The notes below the pieces were generated by a model. That model made no database searches. It was not told where the DNA came from and worked only from the letters and a program-made list of their open reading frames with translations. Source: Bacteroidales bacterium (lineage in GTDB: Bacteria; Bacteroidota; Bacteroidia; Bacteroidales; GCA-2748055). Taken from it: a stretch of 41,714 bases of DNA. Where the stretch lies: assembly GCA_029938715.1 (NCBI GenBank), contig JAOZUK010000024.1, forward strand, positions 1 to 41,714. The letters are read 5' to 3'. A program made the translations under genes and the position numbers. Below, piece after piece: positions 20,614-37,259 of this stretch; the first letter of the stretch is position 1, and every line of letters begins with the position of its first letter.

Positions 20614-21081
20614 ATGACTGTAATCATTATACTTATTGTTCTTGGAATTCTTCTGTTTGTGATTGAATTCCTGCTGGTCCCCGGAGTTACAGTCGCAGGG
20701 ATTGGAGGGCTTGTACTTACTGTATTTGGCGTATACAAAGCATTTAATGATTTTGGATCGGCTGTTGGTGCATGGGTTTTGATCGGAACCATTTTGCTCA
20801 GTGTTTTCGTGATTGCGATGTCGCTCCGGGCCAGAACATGGAACAGGTTGATGCTGAAGACAGATATTAAAGGAACTGTAGATAAGGATTTAACCGAAGA
20901 TCAGGTCAAAAAGGGTGACCTGGGTACTGCACTTACCCGGCTGGCCCCTATGGGAAAGATTCTTGTTAACGACCTGGTCAGGGAGGCCAAATCCACAGAA
21001 GGGTATGTGGATGAGCATTCCAAAATAGAAATTGTCTCTATTAAAGGGACCAGAATCAGTGTAAAACCAGTAAAAAAATAG
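20614..21081 (+). CDS. NfeD-family membrane protein
   Basis: 155 aa. Two or three hydrophobic helices lie in the first 75 residues (VIIILIVLGILLFVIEFLLVPG; AGIGGLVLTVFGVY; VLIGTILLSVFVIAMSL). A C-terminal OB-fold-like domain follows (GTVDKDLTEDQVKKGDLGTALTRLAPMGKILVNDLVREAKSTEGYVDEHSKIEIVSIKGTRISVKPV). NfeD proteins pair with SPFH proteins, and the FloA gene follows after only 6 bp. This is the short NfeD form without the N-terminal ClpP-like protease domain. Confidence 0.93.
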   Translation: MTVIIILIVLGILLFVIEFLLVPGVTVAGIGGLVLTVFGVYKAFNDFGSAVGAWVLIGTILLSVFVIAMSLRARTWNRLMLKTDIKGTVDKDLTEDQVKKGDLGTALTRLAPMGKILVNDLVREAKSTEGYVDEHSKIEIVSIKGTRISVKPVKK

Positions 21082-21087
21082 AATACT

Positions 21088-22101
21088 ATGGAATTTACTT
21101 ACTCATGGATCGTCATTGTTGTGGCCAGTATAATTGGCCTCTGGATTATTTTGTATTTCATCCCCATCGGATTGTGGTTTACCTCATTGTTGTCGGGAGT
21201 CAAAATGTCTCTTTTACAACTGATTTTGATGCGGTGGCGGAAAGTCCCGCCAACAGTCATTGTAAGATCCATGATCGAAGCGTACAAAGCAGGGCTTGCT
21301 TATATAAAGCGGGATGAACTGGAGGCACACTTCCTGGCAGGAGGCCATGTGGAGCAGGTGATTCATTCGCTGGTATCTGCCAGCAAAGCCAATATTGATT
21401 TGACTTTCCAGATGGCCACAGCCATTGATCTGGCAGGTCGTGACGTACTTGAAGCTGTGCAAATGTCGGTGAATCCACAGGTGATTAATACGCCGCCTGT
21501 AACGGCTGTAGCCAAGGATGGAATCCAGTTGATTGCCAAAGCGCGAGTCACAGTAAGGGCCAATATTAAGCAGCTGGTGGGTGGTGCAGGAGAAGAGACC
21601 GTCCTGGCCAGGGTTGGTGAAGGAATTGTGTCTTCCATTGGTTCATCAAAGTCCCATAAGGAGGTTCTTGAAAATCCGGATAATATCTCTAAAATGGTGT
21701 TGGATAAGGGATTGGATGCAGGAACTGCATTTGAGATATTATCCATAGATGTGGCAGATATTGACATCGGGAAAAACATTGGAGCAGTCTTGCAAATGGA
21801 CCAGGCCAATGCAGATAAGAACATTGCTCAGGCCAAAGCCGAAGAGCGAAGAGCTATGGCTGTCGCTACTGAGCAGGAGATGAAAGCCAAGGCACAGGAA
21901 GCTCGGGCCAAGGTAATCGAAGCTGAAGTTGAGATTCCACTTGCGATGGCTGAAGCTTTCAGGGCAGGGAACCTGGGGATCATGGATTATTATAAGTTCA
22001 AGAATATAGAGGCGGACACAACCATGAGAGACTCCATCTCCAAGGGGACACAGCAGCCCTCTAATAGACCAGGCTCAAAGGATAAGGATAAGGATAGCTA
22101 G
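21088..22101 (+). CDS. floA: Flotillin-like protein FloA
   Basis: 337 aa. The UPF0365/FloA family scaffolds membrane microdomains. An N-terminal membrane hairpin (about residues 5-55) precedes the SPFH domain, with characteristic [38 protein letters not shown] and [31 protein letters not shown] segments. An Ala/Glu-rich coiled coil ([40 protein letters not shown]) and a polar Lys/Asp tail follow. It is the last gene of clpS-nfeD-floA and is convergent with the gene at 22109 across 7 bp. Confidence 0.96.
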
Positions 22102-22108
22102 TAGGTAA

Positions 22109-22771
22109 TTACTTTTTACGGTGGTATCCGCCGGCCGGAAATCCCCCTTTTACACCCCGGGATACCCCGCCATCTTCATCCCGGGTTTCCGGGGAAAGCC
22201 ACTGCTTAAGATCGCTCACAGATAGGTCACTTATTGGGGGTTGATCCGTAATAAGAAACCCACCCAGTAAATATGAAAAGGGATCTTGATCTTTAAATGC
22301 GAAAAGGTGATCTTCTGCGTGCTTTACAAGTGTAGATCCTTCCAGTCGGGTCATCATCAGTTGGGTGTCAATGCTGTCGCGATCAGGTTTAAGGGTATAG
22401 GTTACCATGAAGTCTTTACCCTCGCTCATCCATTTTGTTCTTGCGTTGGGAAGAATCTCCATCTTTATTACCAAAGGATGTTTAAGTTCACCATCCTCAA
22501 GTAGAAACTGAGAAATATCACTAATTGTATATGTAAACCACCCTTCTTCATCAGAAAAAGCAGAGGGTTTGACTTCATATAAAATCTCATGAACCCCTTC
22601 TTTTGAAATCTGAACTGTCAGATCAAAATCTTCATTGCAGATAGGTTTGCTTTGACTGTCGATAAGTTTTCCCACGAATTTCATCTCGTAAACCAGCTGA
22701 CCGTTGGCAGATACCAGAATAAGTAAATTTGCCATTAGTACTGTAATAATTCTGCGTTTAATCAGACTCAT
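22109..22771 (-). CDS. Secreted protein of unknown function
   Basis: 220 aa from ATG 22771. The frame is open for 29 more codons upstream, but the chosen start gives a proper signal peptide (about MSLIKRRIITVLMANLLILVSANGQ). The mature part has a beta-rich segment (LVYEMKFVGKLIDSQSKPICNEDFDLTVQI...GWFTYTISDISQFLLEDGELKHPLVIKMEIL) resembling an Ig-like or transthyretin-like fold. It ends in a low-complexity Gly/Arg/Lys-rich tail. I do not recognise a family. It is convergent with floA with almost no gap. Confidence 0.65.
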   Translation of the reverse strand: MSLIKRRIITVLMANLLILVSANGQLVYEMKFVGKLIDSQSKPICNEDFDLTVQISKEGVHEILYEVKPSAFSDEEGWFTYTISDISQFLLEDGELKHPLVIKMEILPNARTKWMSEGKDFMVTYTLKPDRDSIDTQLMMTRLEGSTLVKHAEDHLFAFKDQDPFSYLLGGFLITDQPPISDLSVSDLKQWLSPETRDEDGGVSRGVKGGFPAGGYHRKK

Positions 22772-22939
22772 GGAATGTAGTTTAGGTAAAGTAAATCTAC
22801 GAATTATTACTAATAGTTGCGGGAGTAGGTGTGAATATATCCATCTCTTTATGTTCATATAGAATTATGAACACCTGTTGATTGATCAGGTTTGTTCTTG
22901 GGGAGTACTCCGCTGTCTTGGCACAGAGGTTATTAACAA

Positions 22940-22969
22940 ATTGTTTATAACCGTTGTGCGTTATTTGTG
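22940..22969 (+). promoter_or_regulatory. Promoter for the 22976-23545 RNA
   Basis: ATTG at 22940-22943 (a -33 match) is followed after 18 bases by TATTTGTG at 22962-22969, one mismatch from TAnnTTTG. The predicted start is near 22976. Confidence 0.5.
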
Positions 22970-22975
22970 AATAGA

Positions 22976-23545
22976 GAACAGTCGTACTTTCTTGACTTGT
23001 TTTCCTCGATGGTCTATTTTTATGGGACCGAGTAAGAGATAACAGGCTGCTCGAAGTTTCGCCCGGTGTAGTGAACCATTCCGAAAGGAATTGGGTAGCG
23101 AACCGGCCAGTTAAGGAATAATCCCTAACCGGAGATTCATCCAGAGCCAGGCATATACCTCGAAACAGTGTTTCCCGGTATATTCAATCGCAGATCCCTT
23201 CTTGGAAGATCTTTTAAAGGTTGATCCGAAAGGCTGAAGAGCCAAAAAGAATCCTTGCGGGTTCCACTAAGCATTCCCACTCTGGCAGCGGACAGAACTT
23301 AAGAACCGGACGTTGCAGGGGCCTTTAGGAGCCAGTCCCGGAAATTCAGTGCTTGTCATTGGGTGAAAGGACGGTAGCAGGTCAGTGTTCTATGGAACAC
23401 AGGCTGAGAACACGGGCTTGCCGAATACAGATCCTTGGGGTCGTATCGGTAGAGCCAGCCAGAATAACTGTAGCTCGGCACTGATTGATGGCTATGGGTG
23501 TCATTCAGTGAAATGGGAGTAAACTACAAAGTTTACTCCCATTTT
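22976..23545 (+). ncRNA. Large structured non-coding RNA of unidentified family
   Basis: No credible ORF exists on either strand between 22772 and 23580, yet the stretch is dense in stable hairpins. A GAAA tetraloop closes a stem at 23076-23094. A nested hairpin spans 23053... in the 5' third only loosely, but 23153-23183 is clear (ATATACC/GGTATAT around GAAAC/GTTTC). Others are 23107-23132, 23385-23400 (GTGTTC/GAACAC) and a 12-13-bp interrupted hairpin at 23421-23449. A promoter-like pair precedes it and a perfect intrinsic terminator ends it. The GAGGAAAGTCC core of RNase P RNA, the tmRNA ends and a 6S-like closed stem were not found. GTGCG at 22956 matches group II intron 5' ends, but there is no maturase and no domain V. 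Length and terminator favour an independent transcript of about 570 nt. Confidence 0.65.
23511..23545 (+). terminator. Intrinsic terminator of the structured RNA
   Basis: A perfect 12-bp stem (23514-23525 with 23530-23541) with ACAA loop is followed by TTTT. The flanking AAA extends the pairing. On the minus strand the trailing sequence is not T-rich, so the plus direction is favoured. Confidence 0.85.
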
Positions 23546-23580
23546 GTATAGGTGTTAGTGATGATTTCTCCCCTGAAAGA

Positions 23581-24942
23581 TCATTTTCCCCGACTGGCAA
23601 TTTTCTTAATTTGCTCCACAACCAGACCGATCAGAATACCTGCCAGACAGAATGCAAATGCCCAAATCACAAGATCTTCAGATATTCCAAATATGATGGC
23701 CGGTACAATTACACCTACCAGGCAAAACAGGATCGATAGATTAACACTCAGACGATTTATCTTTGGGGCGATCCACAATACAAGGACCAGTAATCCAAGT
23801 GACATGGTGAGCGATACAAAAAAGAATGTGGCATCCACGATATCGCGCAGTACAAGGGACATGGAGATTCCAAGAATCATCAAAACCACCATGCTGTATC
23901 GCATGGTTTTTCTAAGATTTGTAGATTTGGTCAGTCCGGTCTTTTCCAGGAAATCCTGAGTTACCGAAGCTGAAGCTGTAAACATATAAGTATCGGCCGA
24001 TGACGATACTGAAGAGTAGATGATTACAACCGACAAACCTGCCAGTCCAACCGGTAGCAATCTGCTGAACCCAACAATCAGGGAGGTGTCTGGGGCAATG
24101 TCGGGTATATCGGCACGGATTACCAATCCGATAAGGAGCAGTATAAAGCCCACGATAATATAGAATATGGAGGAGAGAAATATACTGCGTTTGAAATGTT
24201 TTTTGTTCTTAATAGCATATACCCGTTGCCAGAGTTCGGGTGAAGCCATGGGAATGAAAAATCCGGCAAGGAAGAAGCTGACCAGCTGCATGACCGGGAT
24301 ATTGAAGAGGTCCATAAATACAACTTCTGGTTTGGTGCTGGTTGTGGTAAGCAGGTACATCATAAGCACAAACAGCAGGAAGATCCCAAAGGTTTGAATG
24401 ATATCGGTCTTTACTACAGCATCGAATCCTCCAGCAATCAGGTAAAGGAGGATGATGACCCCCACAATCATTACCGAGAGATCGTAGCTGATGGGTGTAT
24501 ACTCAGAAACCAGCTTTGCTCCCGCTGTAAAATTGAGCACCACCCACCCAAACATGATAATGATCGTGATAATGGTAGCCAGGTAGCCAGCAAATTTCCC
24601 CTTCATAAAAAAGAAGAAGTCAGGCATGGTATAGAACTTCTCCTTATCTGCAATCTTTTTGATTTTTAGTCCGAAAAAGTAAAAAACAAACAATCCAAAA
24701 ACAGAGCCTACAAAGTACCAGAGTGCACCCATTCCATACATATAGACCAGAGCAGTATAGGTGAGCAAAATGGCTGCTCCTATGCGGCTGGAAAAGATTG
24801 TAGCTGTAGCCTGGATCGAGGTGAGTTTTCGGCCTGAGATCAAGAACTCCTCTTTTTCCTGTTTTCGTCCAGTGAGTGCTCCAACAAGAAGTATCACAAG
24901 AAAATACGCCACAATAATGATGTAGTCAGTAAAGATTAGCAT
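23581..24942 (-). CDS. Sodium:solute symporter (SSS family)
   Basis: 453 aa with about 12-13 hydrophobic segments across its length. SSS features include the N-terminal YFLVILLVGALTGRK...EEFLISGRKL, an IGGFDAVVKTDIIQ-like segment (LIAGGFDAVVKTDIIQTFGIF), FFIPMASPELWQRVYAIKN, and the YSSVSSSADTYMFTASASVTQDF segment that corresponds to the Na+-binding and gating helix. These proteins import sugars, amino acids, carboxylates or other solutes with sodium, and the substrate cannot be predicted. It is divergent from the SusC/SusD operon across 424 bp and may import a product of that uptake system, which is inference from position only. Confidence 0.93.
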   Translation of the reverse strand: MLIFTDYIIIVAYFLVILLVGALTGRKQEKEEFLISGRKLTSIQATATIFSSRIGAAILLTYTALVYMYGMGALWYFVGSVFGLFVFYFFGLKIKKIADKEKFYTMPDFFFFMKGKFAGYLATIITIIIMFGWVVLNFTAGAKLVSEYTPISYDLSVMIVGVIILLYLIAGGFDAVVKTDIIQTFGIFLLFVLMMYLLTTTSTKPEVVFMDLFNIPVMQLVSFFLAGFFIPMASPELWQRVYAIKNKKHFKRSIFLSSIFYIIVGFILLLIGLVIRADIPDIAPDTSLIVGFSRLLPVGLAGLSVVIIYSSVSSSADTYMFTASASVTQDFLEKTGLTKSTNLRKTMRYSMVVLMILGISMSLVLRDIVDATFFFVSLTMSLGLLVLVLWIAPKINRLSVNLSILFCLVGVIVPAIIFGISEDLVIWAFAFCLAGILIGLVVEQIKKIASRGK

Positions 24943-25366
24943 GGTGGTTAGTTTTAGTATTCAGTTATGTAAATATATAAAAATCTGCATAACGCCAATA
25001 TTGTCCGGATCAGAACTACATGCACTACCCGGAAATCTGTCCTGTATGTGTTGACCCCCCTGCTGGTGTTATTTGACCCGGTGTTGAAGGTATTATTATG
25101 GGCGAATGCACCAGTTTATCAGTCAATGACAAACAAGTCACCTGTCAGTGACGGTCTAAAGCCTGTAAAAGGAGTAAAACAGATGTGAAACAACAGAATG
25201 GCCCCAACAAGCTGCCATTGCTTGATATTATTAGATAAACAGTACACTTTCGACTTTCTTCAGTTGAAATTCTACTAACGGCACGTGTTTGCGGGATAAG
25301 ATCATATACATTCTCGGGGACAGAAGTGGTAGAAGAACCTTTAATCGTCAAACTAAATCTGAATCT
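24943..25366. other. 424-bp divergent intergenic region, symporter / SusC
   Basis: No gene is seen. It contains a small hairpin (GTCAC/GTGAC at about 25136-25152). Two CCTGT pentamers lie 21 bp apart at 25141 and 25162; on the minus strand these read ACAGG, like the repeats at 34444 and 35610. A weak SusC promoter candidate is TTG at 25222-25224 followed after 18 bases by TACACTTTCG at 25243, which has one base extra compared with TAnnTTTG. Confidence 0.45.
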
Positions 25367-28300
25367 ATGAAAAGAGTACTAAGCTTTCTGCTATTTATGG
25401 CGCTGGGCACATTGTCCCTCTTCGGACAGGCCCGGGAAGTCACCGGTACGGTGGTCGGCGCCGAAGACGGAGAACTGTTACCTGGTGTCTCCGTAGCTGT
25501 AAAAGGAACCACTATCGGGACCATTACAGATCTCAATGGTAAATATGTAATCAACGTTCCACAAAATAGTGATGTGTTGATCTTTAGTTTTGTTGGACTT
25601 CTGACACAGGAAGTTGAGATTGGTAACAACCTGGTTCTTGATTTTTCCATGGAGCTAGACTTACTGGAGATTGATGAGGTGGTGGTTACCGCCATGGGAA
25701 TCCGAAAAGAGAAAAAAGCCCTGGGTTATTCGGTCCAGGAACTAGACGAATCCCAGATTTCCGGTGCCAAGAACATGGATATCTCCAAATCACTTCAGGG
25801 AAAAATTGCCGGGGTGAATGTGAAACAGTCCAGCGGAATGCCGGGAGCTACTTCCCATGTAACCATTAGAGGTAATGTCTCCCTCACCGGATCCAATCAG
25901 CCCCTCTATGTGGTGGATGGAATGCCCATTGCCTCCGAAAAAGCATTTATGGAGAATGTGGGAGAAGGGACCAATCCCTCCTCCAGGGTTGTAGACCTGA
26001 ATCCTGAAGATATCGAATCCATTTCGGTATTAAAAGGTGCCACTGCTTCAGCTCTGTATGGTTTGAGAGCTGCAAACGGCGTGATTGTAATCACCACCAA
26101 GAGTGGCTCTGCCGCCAGGGCTGCTGGCAAACAAACACTTGTGACTGTAAACAGCAGCTTTTCATCAGACAGGATAAGTCGCTTACCCGAACTTCAGTCC
26201 ACCTATGCTCAGGGCAATGGAGGGGTATTGAATCTATGGTCGTCAGGTTCATGGGGACCGCGGATTGATACCCTACAAAATTATCAGTCTCAGGAAGACA
26301 ATCTTTTCTTTGATGATCCATATGAGACTTCTGACGGAAACCCTCCTCCCCAGGTCCCAACTGTATATAACAACCAGGAGGACTTTTTTCAGCAGGGGTA
26401 TACTTTTACTAACTCAGTGGATATTTCATCTGCAACTGACAAGGCCCGTTACAGTCTTGGAATGGGCCGGACCGATCAGAAAGGGATCATTGAAACAACC
26501 GGAATGGTCAGGAACAATGCCAAGTTCAACGGGTTTTTCGACCTGAGTGATAAATGGTCAGCATCGGTTTCGGCCAATGTATCCAACGTGGATATTGATA
26601 AAATCCCTGGAGGAAGCAACCTGGCCAATCCATTGTTTACGGTCTATTTCGCACCCCGGAGTTACGATCTGACCAATAAACCCTTTGAGCGAGAGGAAAA
26701 TCCCTACCAGCAGTATCACTATAGATTTGCCATGGATAATCCTTACTGGGCTCTTAAAAACAATAATTATAATGAAATCACCAACAGGTTCTTTGGAAAT
26801 GCCTCCATCAGTTTCCAGCCGTACGATTGGATGCGTATCAACTATCGGATTGGTCTTGACCGGTTCTTAACCACGGGTCATGAGGTAATTTCACTGGGTT
26901 CAGGCGGACAGGGTAGAGGATATCCAGAGTTCGGTATGGAACCAGCTGCTGGTCAGATTGATGACTATAACTATCAGAGGCAGGAGTTGAATTCCAATGC
27001 AACAATCACATTTACTAAAGATTTTGGAGATTTTGGACTGGATGCAGTCATTGGTAATGAGTTCTATGATATTACTACCAAGACGCATTCCATGACCGGG
27101 ACCAACATAACCATTGGTGGATTTGACCATATATCCAATACCGGGGCCCAAACGATTTTCATGGAGCTCACCGAGCAGCGGGTAGTTGGATTCTTCGGAA
27201 GTGCCACAGTGGATTATGCTTCCATGCTTTTCCTCACGGTGACAGGAAGGAACGATATTGTGTCTAACATGCCTTCAGGAAACAGATCTTACTTCTATCC
27301 ATCCGTATCTGCAGGTTTTATTTTCACAGAACTTGGTTTTCTAAAGGATCAGCAAGTACTTCCTTTCGGAAAGATCCGGGCTTCTTACTCCCAGATGGGA
27401 CAAGCTGGAGCCCTTTATGCAACCCGGACTCTGTATACAGCTAAAGAGGACAACGAGGCTCTTGGCAGCGGATTCCTGGATAATGATTTTACTTTCCCAT
27501 ACCAGGGGTCCCCCGCATTCACACTGCAGTCGACCCTTCTGTCGAATGACCTGAGACCTCAAAATATTACAACCTATGAGATTGGGGCTGACCTTAGGTT
27601 TTATGAGAACAGGTTAGGGATTGACTACTCATACTACTATGTGAATGCCACCGACCAGATATTTAATGTGCCTCTGGCAGCTTCCTCAGGTTTTCGTGGG
27701 GAATACAGAAATGCCGGGGAACTGGAATCAAAAGGTCATGAAATTATATTATCTATCGTTCCCATAAGAACCAGTGGGGGATTTGAGTGGGAGATTCTGA
27801 CTAATTACTCCCAGAACCAGAACATGGTATTATCACTTGCACCCGGAGTTGAACGGGTCCAGACTGGCTGGCAGAACTTCACCAGTGTGGGAGCCTATGC
27901 CTATGAAGGACAGCCCTATCCGGTTATTTTTGGTAGTGGTTATGTGAGGGATGATAACGACCGGATCGTAGTGGATTCCAGGTCTACTGTTGCAGGAGAA
28001 CCCAACCCCTTCTATGGTATGCCTTTGCAGGGAGGAGATGAGAAGATTCTTGGAAAGGTCAATCCCGATTGGGATGCCAGCCTGACCAATACCCTGCGAT
28101 TCAAAGGTTTTACATTGACTGCCATGCTATTCTACTCTAAAGGTGGGTATATATCCAGCGGCCTGACAGGTCTTCTGAGAAACTATGGTGCAGCTAAGGA
28201 GTGTGAAGACAGGGAGACTCCTGTAGTTCTGCCAGATGCTGCCAAGGGTTACCTGGATCCAGCCACAGGGGATCTGATCCTGGAAGGAGACAATGACATT

Positions 28301-28612
28301 GAGTTCCTAAAAGGAGAGGATTACTACAGTACTGTTTTGTGGGGTATAGCAGAATCCAAAATTTTTGATAAAACCCTGCTCAGGTTGAGAGAGGTAGTAT
28401 TTAGCTATGATATGCCGCAGCGCTGGTTTACCAATACATTTATCAGTTCAATTTCGGTATATGCTAATGGCAGGAACCTTGCATTGTGGACCGACTATCC
28501 AAACTTCGACCCTGAATCCAGTACGTCAGAAGGGAATGGTATTGGAGCATTTGAATATGTTTCTCTGCCCAACACCAGGTCCTTTGGTGGTGGTCTTAAA
28601 ATAACCTTTTAA
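25367..28612 (+). CDS. SusC/RagA-family TonB-dependent outer-membrane transporter
   Basis: 1081 aa from ATG 25367. The longer frame from 25289 would precede the signal peptide (MKRVLSFLLFMALGTLSLFGQ). After cleavage there is a carboxypeptidase-D regulatory-like domain (about 25-105: VTGTVVGAEDGELLPGVSVAVKGTTIGTITDLNGKY). A plug follows, with IDEVVVTAMGIRKEKKALGYSVQ (the SusC TonB-box region) and the TIRGNVSLTGSNQPLYVVDGMPI and VLKGATASALYGLRAANGVIVITTK segments. The rest is a 22-strand barrel ending in GGGLKITF. It imports an unknown substrate with its SusD partner. No glycosidase, peptidase or regulator of the classical polysaccharide-utilisation type is adjacent. Confidence 0.97.
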   Translation: MKRVLSFLLFMALGTLSLFGQAREVTGTVVGAEDGELLPGVSVAVKGTTIGTITDLNGKYVINVPQNSDVLIFSFVGLLTQEVEIGNNLVLDFSMELDLLEIDEVVVTAMGIRKEKKALGYSVQELDESQISGAKNMDISKSLQGKIAGVNVKQSSGMPGATSHVTIRGNVSLTGSNQPLYVVDGMPIASEKAFMENVGEGTNPSSRVVDLNPEDIESISVLKGATASALYGLRAANGVIVITTKSGSAARAAGKQTLVTVNSSFSSDRISRLPELQSTYAQGNGGVLNLWSSGSWGPRIDTLQNYQSQEDNLFFDDPYETSDGNPPPQVPTVYNNQEDFFQQGYTFTNSVDISSATDKARYSLGMGRTDQKGIIETTGMVRNNAKFNGFFDLSDKWSASVSANVSNVDIDKIPGGSNLANPLFTVYFAPRSYDLTNKPFEREENPYQQYHYRFAMDNPYWALKNNNYNEITNRFFGNASISFQPYDWMRINYRIGLDRFLTTGHEVISLGSGGQGRGYPEFGMEPAAGQIDDYNYQRQELNSNATITFTKDFGDFGLDAVIGNEFYDITTKTHSMTGTNITIGGFDHISNTGAQTIFMELTEQRVVGFFGSATVDYASMLFLTVTGRNDIVSNMPSGNRSYFYPSVSAGFIFTELGFLKDQQVLPFGKIRASYSQMGQAGALYATRTLYTAKEDNEALGSGFLDNDFTFPYQGSPAFTLQSTLLSNDLRPQNITTYEIGADLRFYENRLGIDYSYYYVNATDQIFNVPLAASSGFRGEYRNAGELESKGHEIILSIVPIRTSGGFEWEILTNYSQNQNMVLSLAPGVERVQTGWQNFTSVGAYAYEGQPYPVIFGSGYVRDDNDRIVVDSRSTVAGEPNPFYGMPLQGGDEKILGKVNPDWDASLTNTLRFKGFTLTAMLFYSKGGYISSGLTGLLRNYGAAKECEDRETPVVLPDAAKGYLDPATGDLILEGDNDIEFLKGEDYYSTVLWGIAESKIFDKTLLRLREVVFSYDMPQRWFTNTFISSISVYANGRNLALWTDYPNFDPESSTSEGNGIGAFEYVSLPNTRSFGGGLKITF

Positions 28613-28624
28613 ATATACAATAAG

Positions 28625-30052
28625 ATGAAAAAATATATTTCAATATTCAGTGTACTCCTGCTCATGCTGTTCACATTATCGTGCAGTGATGAGATCATGG
28701 ATGAGATCGATACGGATCCCAACAACCCCACCGATGTGCCCATCAGCATGCTTATGTCGGGTTGTACTGCTGCTACGCCCTACTGGGTGACAGGAACCAC
28801 CCTGGCCTGGTATAGCTCTATCTTTGTTGAACATACCTGCGGTGCCCACGGCCAGATGCGTGATGCTGACAGGCGTGCTAATATTAACTCTCAGCTCAGT
28901 GAAAACAGTTGGGCATTTCAGATCTACCCAAGGTTATTACCAGACCTGAAGATTATTGTTGAAAAGGGATCGGCAGGGGGAAGCGAAGAGGGAAAATGGA
29001 TTGATGTGGGTATTGCTAAGGTACTTCAGGCTTATACTTTCCTGGCATCGACCGATACCTGGGGACGGATTCCATATTCGGAAGCTACCCTTGGGGCGGA
29101 GAACCGGAAACCGGCATATGATACGCAGGAATCAATTTATTCTGCCATAATGAATCTCCTGGATGATGCCATCTCGGATCTTCAGAAGGAGAATATTAGC
29201 ACCACAGGTGGAGAGGATTATATTTACGGTGGTGATCCGGATGCATGGATCCTTGCAGCCTATTCCCTTAAAGCCAGATATGCCAACAGGTTAAGCAACG
29301 TTGATCCAACTGGTTCGGCTGCAATTGCATTGGCAGACGCAGCCAATGGTTTTAGCTCGTCACTGGATGATTTCACATTCGACAACTGGGCCAATGACCT
29401 GGGTCACGAAAATACCTGGTTCCAGGAGGAGAATGAGCGTCGTCATCATGCCATTAGCGTGACTTTCTATAATATCCTGGATGAAGTCAATGATCCAAGG
29501 ATTCCCCTGTTTATTACACAGGTGAATGGAGAATATGTGCCGGCACAAAACGGAACTTCCGAGGAGGATCAGGCAGGTACAATCTATTCACGGATGTCGG
29601 AGCATGTGATCTTTGCAACAGCACCCTTGCCCATTATGACCTACGCCGAATTGAAGTTAATTGAGGCGGAGTGTCATTTAAGGAAAGCAGCTCCAGATGC
29701 AACTGCTGCTCTTGCAGCGTATACAGAAGGATTGGAGGCCGCATTGTTCCAGGCTGGAGTAGATTCATCTGCAGTTGAAGCATATTTTGCTCAGCCTGAA
29801 GTACTGCCTGCTGATGCAGCTAACCTGACAATGGAAATGATCTATAAGCAAAAGTATATTCATTTGTGGCCCTATGGTGCTGTTGAAGCATATGCGGAAT
29901 GGAGAAGAACAGGATATCCAACAATGACCAATCCATTCGAGACTCCCAGGAGGTTCCCTTATCCCCAGAACGAAATCTCAGGTAATGCAGAGAATGTTCC
30001 GGATGTCACTCCTTACAATGGTGTCTGGTGGGATGATGGGACAGAAGATTAA
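28625..30052 (+). CDS. SusD/RagB-family nutrient-binding lipoprotein (SusD-like_2 type)
   Basis: 475 aa, 12 bp after SusC. The lipoprotein signal peptide ends with LFTLSC (Cys near residue 20). The mature start DEIDTDPNNPTDVPISMLMSG and the segments VLQAYTFLASTDTWGRIPYSEA, LKARYANRLSNVD and LIEAECHLRKA are typical of the SusD-like_2 group, with TPR-like helices and the usual C-terminal ETPRRFPYPQNE. It forms the extracellular lid of the SusC pore and captures ligand. An intrinsic terminator follows at 30100-30136, so the operon is just susC-susD. Confidence 0.95.
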   Translation: MKKYISIFSVLLLMLFTLSCSDEIMDEIDTDPNNPTDVPISMLMSGCTAATPYWVTGTTLAWYSSIFVEHTCGAHGQMRDADRRANINSQLSENSWAFQIYPRLLPDLKIIVEKGSAGGSEEGKWIDVGIAKVLQAYTFLASTDTWGRIPYSEATLGAENRKPAYDTQESIYSAIMNLLDDAISDLQKENISTTGGEDYIYGGDPDAWILAAYSLKARYANRLSNVDPTGSAAIALADAANGFSSSLDDFTFDNWANDLGHENTWFQEENERRHHAISVTFYNILDEVNDPRIPLFITQVNGEYVPAQNGTSEEDQAGTIYSRMSEHVIFATAPLPIMTYAELKLIEAECHLRKAAPDATAALAAYTEGLEAALFQAGVDSSAVEAYFAQPEVLPADAANLTMEMIYKQKYIHLWPYGAVEAYAEWRRTGYPTMTNPFETPRRFPYPQNEISGNAENVPDVTPYNGVWWDDGTED

Positions 30053-30099
30053 ATCATAAATAAGTCTCCTATTTAACAGGTACTAGGTACTTGAATAGC

Positions 30100-30136
30100 A
30101 ATGAGGGTGTCTCTGTTGGGCACCTTCATTTTTTTT
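30100..30136 (+). terminator. Terminator of the SusC/SusD operon
   Basis: The stem AATGAGGGTGTC/GGCACCTTCATT (about 10-12 bp with two G-T pairs) is followed by eight T residues. Confidence 0.85.
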
Positions 30137-30170
30137 GTGCTATATTCTCAATTTTATTGTTCTATTCTTG

Positions 30171-30178
30171 TAAGTTTG
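30171..30178 (+). promoter_or_regulatory. -7 promoter element (TAAGTTTG) for the FISUMP lipoprotein gene
   Basis: This is a perfect TAnnTTTG match 46 bp before the ATG at 30224 and just after the SusC/SusD terminator. The -33 match is poor. Confidence 0.45.
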
Positions 30179-30223
30179 GCTCAGTTTTTGAAACCAGAAG
30201 GTTTCTTTTATCAATTGAGAATT

Positions 30224-31279
30224 ATGAAATATGTTTTACGTATAGTGCTAACTATTTCTTTGGTATTAAATCTATCCTGCAAGGAGAAAGAGAATGTAAC
30301 CCCCACCTGTGAAATCATTACTCCACTTGATGGAGATACAATTATGCAGGGGGATCTGGTTAATATCTCCGTTGCAGCTCACGATACTGACGGAACCATT
30401 GTTTGGGTTGAGTTATATATTGATGGAGATGAAATCGGACGGGCAGAAGAATCTACATATGAATATGAGTGGATTACAGATGAAGCCGAGGTTGGGGTCC
30501 ACATCATATCTGCAGTTACTGCAGATGACGAAGGCCAGGGTATTGCTGATAACATTGGCGTACTGCTGGATGTTGCCGGTGGTTTCAATCCCGATCTTAC
30601 CTATGGAAAGGTGACTGATTATGATGGCAATAACTATGCGACCATTGAGATTGGTGAACAGACGTGGATGGCAGAGAATCTAAAGGTCACCCACTATGCC
30701 GATGGAAGTTCCATCCCACAGGTTGCAGATGGATCGGAATGGGAGGGAATGGAATCCTCAGTGAAAGCATATAGCTGGTATGATAACCTAGCCGGGAATG
30801 GTGATATTTATGGAGGACTCTATACATGGGCGGCAGCTGTGAACGGAGCCTCCGGGAGTGATGAAGACCCTGGCGGTATTCAGGGGGTTTGTCCCGATGG
30901 CTGGCATATGCCGGGTGATGCAGAATGGAAAAAACTGGAAATATTTCTGGGAATGAGCCAGGACCAATCAGATAAACAGGACTGGCGTGGGACCAACGAG
31001 GGTGGTCAGATTAAAGAGAGGGGTTTTTCACACTGGGAAGCACCAAATTTGGGAGGCGATAATTCAAGTGGATTTACAGCAATTTCGGGAGGCTTTCGCA
31101 GTTCAAAGGGTGGATTCTACAGCCTTGGCATTGAGGCTACTTTCTGGACGACAGATGAGGAGGTTGAAACAGATAAGGCTTGGTATCGCATACTCAATTT
31201 TCAAAAAGAAAATGTGTACCGACACTACAATGACAAGAGTCAGGGGCTCTCGGTTCGTTGCGTGAAAAATGCTATTTGA
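30224..31279 (+). CDS. Lipoprotein with Ig-like domain and FISUMP domain
   Basis: 351 aa from ATG 30224. This start gives a lipoprotein signal ending LVLNLSC, and the open frame further upstream runs into the preceding terminator. Residues about 28-115 form an Ig-like domain (CEIITPLDGDTIMQGDLVNISVAAHDTDGTIVWVELYIDG). The rest is a Fibrobacter succinogenes major paralogous (FISUMP) domain: YATIEIGEQTWMAENLKVTHY, GLYTWAAAVN, GVCPDGWHMPGDAEWKKLE, and a C-terminal LSVRCVKN. FISUMP proteins are abundant surface lipoproteins of Bacteroidota and Fibrobacter with unknown function. It has its own promoter element, so it need not be part of the Sus pair. Confidence 0.9.
   Translation: MKYVLRIVLTISLVLNLSCKEKENVTPTCEIITPLDGDTIMQGDLVNISVAAHDTDGTIVWVELYIDGDEIGRAEESTYEYEWITDEAEVGVHIISAVTADDEGQGIADNIGVLLDVAGGFNPDLTYGKVTDYDGNNYATIEIGEQTWMAENLKVTHYADGSSIPQVADGSEWEGMESSVKAYSWYDNLAGNGDIYGGLYTWAAAVNGASGSDEDPGGIQGVCPDGWHMPGDAEWKKLEIFLGMSQDQSDKQDWRGTNEGGQIKERGFSHWEAPNLGGDNSSGFTAISGGFRSSKGGFYSLGIEATFWTTDEEVETDKAWYRILNFQKENVYRHYNDKSQGLSVRCVKNAI

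Positions 31280-37170: not shown

Positions 37171-37259
<89 letters not shown>

Follow-up and report, generated by a model that had tools for sequence, protein, structure and literature searches.

A structured noncoding RNA gene in a Bacteroidales bacterium as a probable member of an undescribed RNA family with conserved closed ends and a variable interior

The window analysed here, i.e. the whole stretch of 41,714 nucleotides, is contig C587 of the source assembly (6.2 Mb in 945 contigs, with a completeness of 97% and a contamination of 4.3%). Its plus strand carries a structured noncoding RNA gene of about 520 nt at positions 23025-23545, which represents the type A member of the family described below. 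No open reading frame (ORF) of at least 60 amino acids in the ORF list of the window overlaps positions 22859-23551, in agreement with the ORF-free stretch noted in the original prediction. The left neighbor is a divergent ORF of 249 amino acids (22109-22858, minus strand) without a Pfam match, and to the right follows a gene for a sodium:solute symporter in convergent orientation (23581-24942, minus strand). Genes for NfeD and FloA (flotillin-like) lie upstream (flanking gene span 20614-22101), genes for a TonB-dependent receptor, a SusD-like protein and a Fib_succ_major protein lie downstream (25289-31279), and a tRNA-Ser (GCT) gene is located at 37171-37259. The source assembly (G000) measures 6.2 Mb as compared to 2.1-4.8 Mb in congeners; contamination or strain mixture may contribute to this size.

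The original prediction had announced an RNA gene of about 570 nt. An RNA gene is supported, but its length has to be corrected: the transcript start predicted from the sequence alone at about 23025-23027 results in a length of about 520 nt, the first 50 nt or so of the proposed stretch being promoter and upstream element. The promoter-like pair is indeed present (22992-23022, plus strand), with a -33 TTG at 22992-22994 and a -7 TAtTTTTa at 23015-23022, and conforms to the Bacteroidota type. The upstream palindrome GTTATTAACAAATTGTTTATAAC (22929-22951, without strand assignment) is regarded as a putative operator; like the two more TGTGnnTA-like boxes next to it, TGTGCGTTA and TGTGAATAG (22955-22974, plus strand), it is kept in same-genus copies. 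This class of boxes is enriched upstream of members of the RNA family.

The predicted RNA, all parts of which lie on the plus strand, is closed by the helix P1 (5′ arm CCGAG at 23028-23032, 3′ arm CTCGG at 23474-23478), supported by compensatory changes in 57 cores. P1 is followed by a conserved purine-rich internal loop, the 5′ side of which (TAAGAGATAACA, 23033-23044) is kept across the family, and the 3′ side of which is AGAATAACTGTAG (23461-23473). P2 (GGCT at 23045-23048 with AGCC at 23457-23460) is part of the consensus fold, with one double change in A2 and U/C variation across the family. P2 encloses a hypervariable interior domain (23049-23456) of about 20 helices in the source genus, unalignable across the family. 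Two elements of this interior had been predicted: a GAAA-capped stem at 23076-23094 is found in the sequence, its core (23080-23082 with 23087-23089) being part of the consensus fold, and an interrupted hairpin at 23421-23449 lies inside a predicted helix (23415-23420/23451-23456) and contains a further inner helix (23432-23434/23438-23440), its inner part being variable. On the 3′ side of P1, the hairpin P3 (23479-23510) carries a CUAYGG-type apical loop, here GGCUAUGGG, and displays strong covariation in sets of 29 and 57 sequences. We also considered a pairing between the CUACGG loop and CUGUAG but discarded it, as locus L041, which has AACAACAAC at that place, keeps CUACGG. The gene ends with an intrinsic terminator (23514-23545), the stem of which (23514-23524 with 23531-23541) is followed by T's, in line with the terminator of the original prediction.

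A nucleotide search for homologues found the region in 20 of 41 genomes, including 16 of the 18 same-genus genomes (source included), some copies being cut at contig ends. The two same-genus genomes without the region, G001 and G010, have a completeness of 82% and 80%, respectively. Conservation and covariation among 13 same-genus homologues, aligned over 536 columns at 74-95% pairwise identity, support the RNA. RNAalifold predicts 154 pairs for these copies, 37 of them with a change on both sides, and 97.3% of the pair cells are standard. Covariation, by which the original prediction had proposed to be checked, is strong: there are 96 double-change cells versus a mean of 32.6 in shuffled alignments (reached in 0 of 500), and 8-19 in slid structures. 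The shuffles, here as in the family-wide counts below, do not preserve relatedness, so these figures are not to be read as a probability. For the window RNA as a single sequence, the minimum free energy corresponds to z = -4.88, and none of 100 shuffles was equally stable. This data confirms, at the level of predicted structure, that the RNA gene represents more than a chance fold.

The exact pattern ACCRAGTRAGAGATAANNGGC was found in 49 stretches among 84,980 species genomes, 38 of which display the 3′ motif 130-575 nt downstream. A further six (L043, L051, L054, L056, L061, L064) are cut off ahead of this motif because the stored DNA or the contig ends there, and five (L035, L044, L046, L047, L069) were judged by reading to be chance matches or coding sequence. 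The 38 records are mostly Bacteroidales or unspecified Bacteroidetes metagenome-assembled genomes (MAGs), the others being assigned to Cyclobacteriaceae, Cytophagales, Lentimicrobiaceae, Algoriphagus and Fulvivirga, with one labelled Chlorobiota. The copy in the latter record (L039) closely resembles those in the Bacteroidales records L037, L048 and L070, and the record may be a mislabelled or misbinned MAG. The Algoriphagus and Fulvivirga carriers are filed under species or strain names and not as MAGs. With model R1, 25 of 40 relatives and 17 of 40 genomes of an Algoriphagus-type family (several of the latter weak) gave a positive result, and with model R2, 8 of 39 genomes of the order, including the source and one congener; 7 remain after the match in G482 was judged false by reading. 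In a broad sample of the phylum, 6 of 392 genomes, source included, carry the family under strict filters, and 2 of 40 under sensitive filters, one of which (G061) was likewise judged false by reading. Weak matches of the 3′ module without a recognised 5′ motif occur at L087, L088 and L131-L134. The distribution of the family is patchy, and the 6 of 392 genomes in the phylum sample indicate that it is not essential to the phylum.

Across the family, the ends are conserved with covariation, namely P1, the nearly invariant internal loop, the 3′ hairpin and the terminator. The 3′ module comprises 19 pairs in 29 sequences, 17 of them with at least one compensatory change. In 57 sequences it displays 353 double-change cells versus a mean of 125 upon shuffling and 49-103 in slid structures; the number of pairs with a double change separates less clearly (23 versus 19.9 shuffled, with 8 of 500 shuffles reaching 23). 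P1 was counted in 57 cores, its arms not having been used for finding them; a 58th core (L129) was dropped as fewer than 3 of 5 pairs formed. The composition of the five pairs in order is CG46/UA6/UG5, CG54/UG2/UA1, AU41/GC13/GU1 (2 unpaired), AU56 (1 unpaired) and GC53/AU3/GU1. By eye, the distant members L170 and L171 read TCAGG/CCTGA and CCAGA/TCTGG at P1. A -7 promoter element of the form TAnn(T/C)T(T/A) is located within 23 nt before the RNA start in 48 of the 57 cores (without a shuffled control), and the remaining nine display AACTTT/AAATTT-like variants by eye.

The interior shows the opposite behavior. In 57 copies the loop motifs are 128 to 523 nt apart, short members having only 128-145 nt between the end motifs and a total length of about 200 nt. 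A rule of 8-mer sharing (12%) sorts 60 interiors into 27 clusters, one of which (L153, 803 nt) is probably spurious. The interior differs between paralogs and between lineages; within the source genus it is mostly helical and conserved by pairing. Two Algoriphagus-type copies contain four tandem modules of about 105 nt at a spacing of 102-112 nt. Enriched words in the interiors correspond to UUCG and GNRA-type loops (CTTCGG 20 versus 2.4, CGAAAG 26 versus 6.3), and the k-mer test, in which GGA loops were not counted specifically, revealed no enriched word common to all 27 interiors.

The upstream element is common to both paralogs and lies at a fixed position. With at most one mismatch, the box TGTGGATAA occurs in 26 of 57 upstream regions of 165 nt (31 sites), compared to a mean of 3.1 and a maximum of 9 in shuffles, and in 10 of 151 upstream regions of ORFs from the fetched loci. 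Allowing up to two mismatches separates less (56/57 versus 82/151 ORF upstream regions). The palindrome TTATTAACAAnTTGTTAATAA (up to 4 edits) precedes 43 of 72 candidates, in 40 cases with its centre at -85 to -87.5 relative to the start of the RNA; many of these candidates are congeners and several are spurious (e.g. the L154 and L164 rows; loosened core pattern). In the window, the palindrome is the only site with up to three mismatches, where 0.00 are expected. Four genomes contain 11 such sites versus 5 for the backwards pattern. All four sites with up to two mismatches precede a family RNA, i.e. both copies in G016 (G016:C9:44971-44991 and G016:C34:37289-37309) and one copy each in G000 and G003; one three-mismatch site lies upstream of the copy in G019, and the other six are not at known copies. 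The palindrome near -86 is found in Bacteroidales, and other members have phased DnaA-box-like repeats: 15 loci without the palindrome, partly related, contain 22 boxes TGTKNATAA, for which a period of 10.9 bp fits best (R = 0.82), a value matched by 0 of 5000 random placements, also after removal of three similar Algoriphagus-type copies. Both the palindrome and these boxes resemble the DnaA box; no binding protein has been shown. As for controls, an inspection by eye of rRNA promoters at 16S loci, available in 2 of 8 genomes of which neither is a known carrier of the RNA, displayed no such palindrome, and for four rnpB and four tmRNA genes the sequence upstream was likewise inspected by eye only.

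Twelve of 18 same-genus genomes contain two copies, type A as in the window and type B, and up to three family copies per genome were found. In G432, two copies are spaced by 1.35 kb (L120/L136, G432:C33), with one more copy on a different contig, and in G490 the spacing of two copies is 1.5 kb (L168/L174, G490:C55); G435:C175 (L134) shows a weak second match at a distance of 0.4 kb from the first. In G003, G013, G014, G016, G019 and G024, 16-19 kb separate type B from the gene for RNase P RNA. ORFs which appear to encode a biotin carboxylase, an SRAP-type protein and a serine hydrolase are repeatedly found in the vicinity, at 10, 9 and 6 of the compared loci, respectively; those with the presumed biotin carboxylase (L037, L039, L045, L048, L070, L074; L049, L050, L066, L080) belong to different families. 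The fixed chromosomal place of type B and the neighbors shared with other families point to vertical descent. Since type A loci lack these recurring neighbors, we interpret them as ancestral synteny, but a functional link to the RNA is not excluded. Among the loci compared, there is no protein gene that accompanies the RNA throughout all lineages. The pattern gave no exact match in viral contigs, and BLAST of the window RNA gave none in plasmids or phages, by which a phage or plasmid origin was rejected. The family is predicted to be chromosomal and apparently vertically inherited in Bacteroidales and Cytophagales-type bacteria.

Known RNA families were searched with the 4227 covariance models of Rfam 15, a match being a score at or above the gathering cut-off of the family. 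Over the whole window the sole match is a tRNA elsewhere, and none is located at the RNA. With E up to 10, 751 bases around the RNA yield only two miRNA matches far below cut-off, one coinciding with the upstream palindrome and the other with the terminator. Neither 15 homologue loci at the gathering threshold nor the short form and the type B form with E up to 1 gave any match. This supports the original prediction of a structured RNA without recognised family, for which an Infernal-type comparison had been named as a check: neither a known family nor an intron domain was matched. The absence of hallmarks of RNase P RNA, tmRNA and 6S RNA, noted in the prediction, likewise agrees with the Rfam models. 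The RNase P RNA model RF00010 matches at G000:C901:15365-15699 in the source genome and not at the RNA, and such a match elsewhere was obtained in 8 of 10 genomes tested, source included. The tmRNA model RF00023 matches elsewhere, full-length and above cut-off, in 6 of 10 genomes; the source assembly contains only sub-threshold matches, none in the RNA, and these carry little weight as archaeal control genomes also matched. ARAGORN detected no tmRNA in the window. An identity with RNase P RNA or tmRNA was thus rejected. Neither the RNA nor the short form matches the 6S model of Rfam, and OLE, ROOL and GOLLD models, presumed to be part of Rfam 15, do not match at the RNA, either at threshold or with E up to 10.

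No published report of this RNA was found in the open-access literature searched, subscription papers and preprints being outside its scope. The main texts of two surveys of structured RNAs do not contain the terms 'bacteroid', 'cytophag' or related genera (PMC11109978; PMC8632094). Given this scope of the literature search, priority of discovery is not proven. None of the curated RNA families searched, and no described RNA that our searches brought up, corresponds to the present family; structured regulatory RNAs in general are already known. The locus is almost certainly a member of an undescribed RNA family, a judgement reached without transcript data. At the level of sequence analysis, a promoter and terminator of its own, a conserved fold, closed ends, a variable interior and a position-fixed upstream element are established as its properties.

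Based on this dataset, we hypothesize that the family is an operator-controlled, trans-acting RNA which docks a shared protein and presents a variable domain. A DNA-binding regulator at the upstream element, presumably an activator, would control the RNA. The closed end (P1, internal loop, P2 and 3′ hairpin) would dock a partner protein common to the family, and the interior would act as a lineage-specific structured domain, with repeated modules in some lineages, that may provide scaffolding or sequestering capacity. The RNA may then work in trans as a regulated ribonucleoprotein or a sequestering RNA, in a logic resembling Csr/Rsm without being Csr/Rsm. Action in trans is suggested by the next genes, which differ between loci, and the lack of a word recurring in all interiors speaks against a plain sponge in which identical binding sites are repeated. 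Neither a partner protein nor a regulator was identified in this analysis. We regard this mechanism as tentative, with doubt outweighing confidence, and the statement as a whole, RNA family plus mechanism, as just short of evenly balanced.

Two other modes of action cannot be excluded. An ornate RNA particle without protein, of the OLE, ROOL or GOLLD type, the function of which would lie in its shape as monomer or homo-oligomer, is unlikely in our view; it would account for the size, the ornate fold and the enrichment of stable tetraloops, and it has a precedent in GOLLD, ROOL and OLE, which form homo-oligomers (PMC12286853). However, the 128-145 nt between the end motifs of short members are too small for a comparable cage, the interiors are unconserved whereas contact sites in OLE, ROOL and GOLLD are conserved, and phage or plasmid matches of the RNA are missing. 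Alternatively, the conserved ends might protect and present the RNA, with a variable interior that base-pairs with lineage-specific mRNAs. Differences between paralogs and lineages are what differing targets would lead to, but the helical interior of the source genus, conserved by pairing, leaves little single-stranded sequence, and we consider such a base-pairing regulator quite unlikely.

Other readings have less in their favor. A diverged housekeeping RNA of the clade, e.g. 6S-like, would be compatible with paired ends around an internal loop and with short members of about 200 nt, and the absence of another 6S RNA in carrier genomes is not excluded; this appears very unlikely in view of the missing Rfam match, RNase P RNA and tmRNA found elsewhere, a loop conserved in sequence, up to three copies per genome and absence from the majority of phylum genomes sampled. 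In 25 of 42 loci the nearest ORF downstream has the same direction as the RNA, which could speak for a cis-acting leader or riboswitch of the downstream gene; these are mechanical ORFs, and some of the loci come from the same or closely related genomes. A strong terminator ends the RNA, though, the next gene is convergent in the window and in 17 of the 42 loci, and the downstream genes are of differing kinds, so that a leader was rejected as highly improbable. Regarding a group II intron remnant or another self-splicing or self-cleaving element, an alternative already doubted in the original prediction, only the GTGCG at 22956 could be put forward. It lies in the upstream element, ahead of the promoter and outside the RNA; no intron domain of Rfam matches the RNA up to E = 10, and the copies have their own promoter and terminator. 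The identity was rejected for lack of any score and for the wrong context, and is scarcely conceivable. Y RNAs resemble the present family in their paired ends, which contain a conserved interrupted helix, and in their variable interior. The TROVE domain of their Ro partner protein (PF05731) was, however, detected in none of 20 RNA-bearing genomes and in 1 of 16 genomes without a detected copy, the search control Deinobacterium chartae being positive. A Ro/Y RNA system is thus unlikely.

The preferred reading, a regulated RNA docking a shared protein, finds its closest counterpart in the Csr/Rsm RNAs, which are paralogous, variable in size, and equipped with a dedicated upstream activating element and repeated hairpin modules. 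This likeness to CsrB, RsmX, RsmY and RsmZ is one of logic only; the present family has a conserved closed end, and the k-mer test gave no repeated binding word common to all interiors. With RNase P RNA and tmRNA it shares the size range and the character of a stable structured RNA gene, but both are matched elsewhere, tmRNA with the reservation made above for the source. OLE, ROOL and GOLLD are likewise large ornate bacterial RNAs; ROOL and GOLLD are phage-associated and of unknown function (PMC12286853). The present RNA differs from these three by the missing Rfam, phage, plasmid and viral-contig matches, and by an interior length that varies several-fold.

Few bacterial RNAs of more than 500 nt have an ornate fold that is conserved, and the family adds one in Bacteroidota. 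The upstream element should lead directly to the regulator, and the carriers filed under species or strain names (Algoriphagus, Fulvivirga) make the question look testable. Natural variants, with end motifs 128-523 nt apart, allow the constant handle to be told apart from the variable domain. The family may represent an operator-controlled, modular class of RNA in which the closed end would dock one shared partner, and one control circuit and one binding protein would serve many scaffolds by way of an expandable interior cassette of structured modules differing between lineages and paralogs, a possibility that we would sooner doubt than endorse at present.
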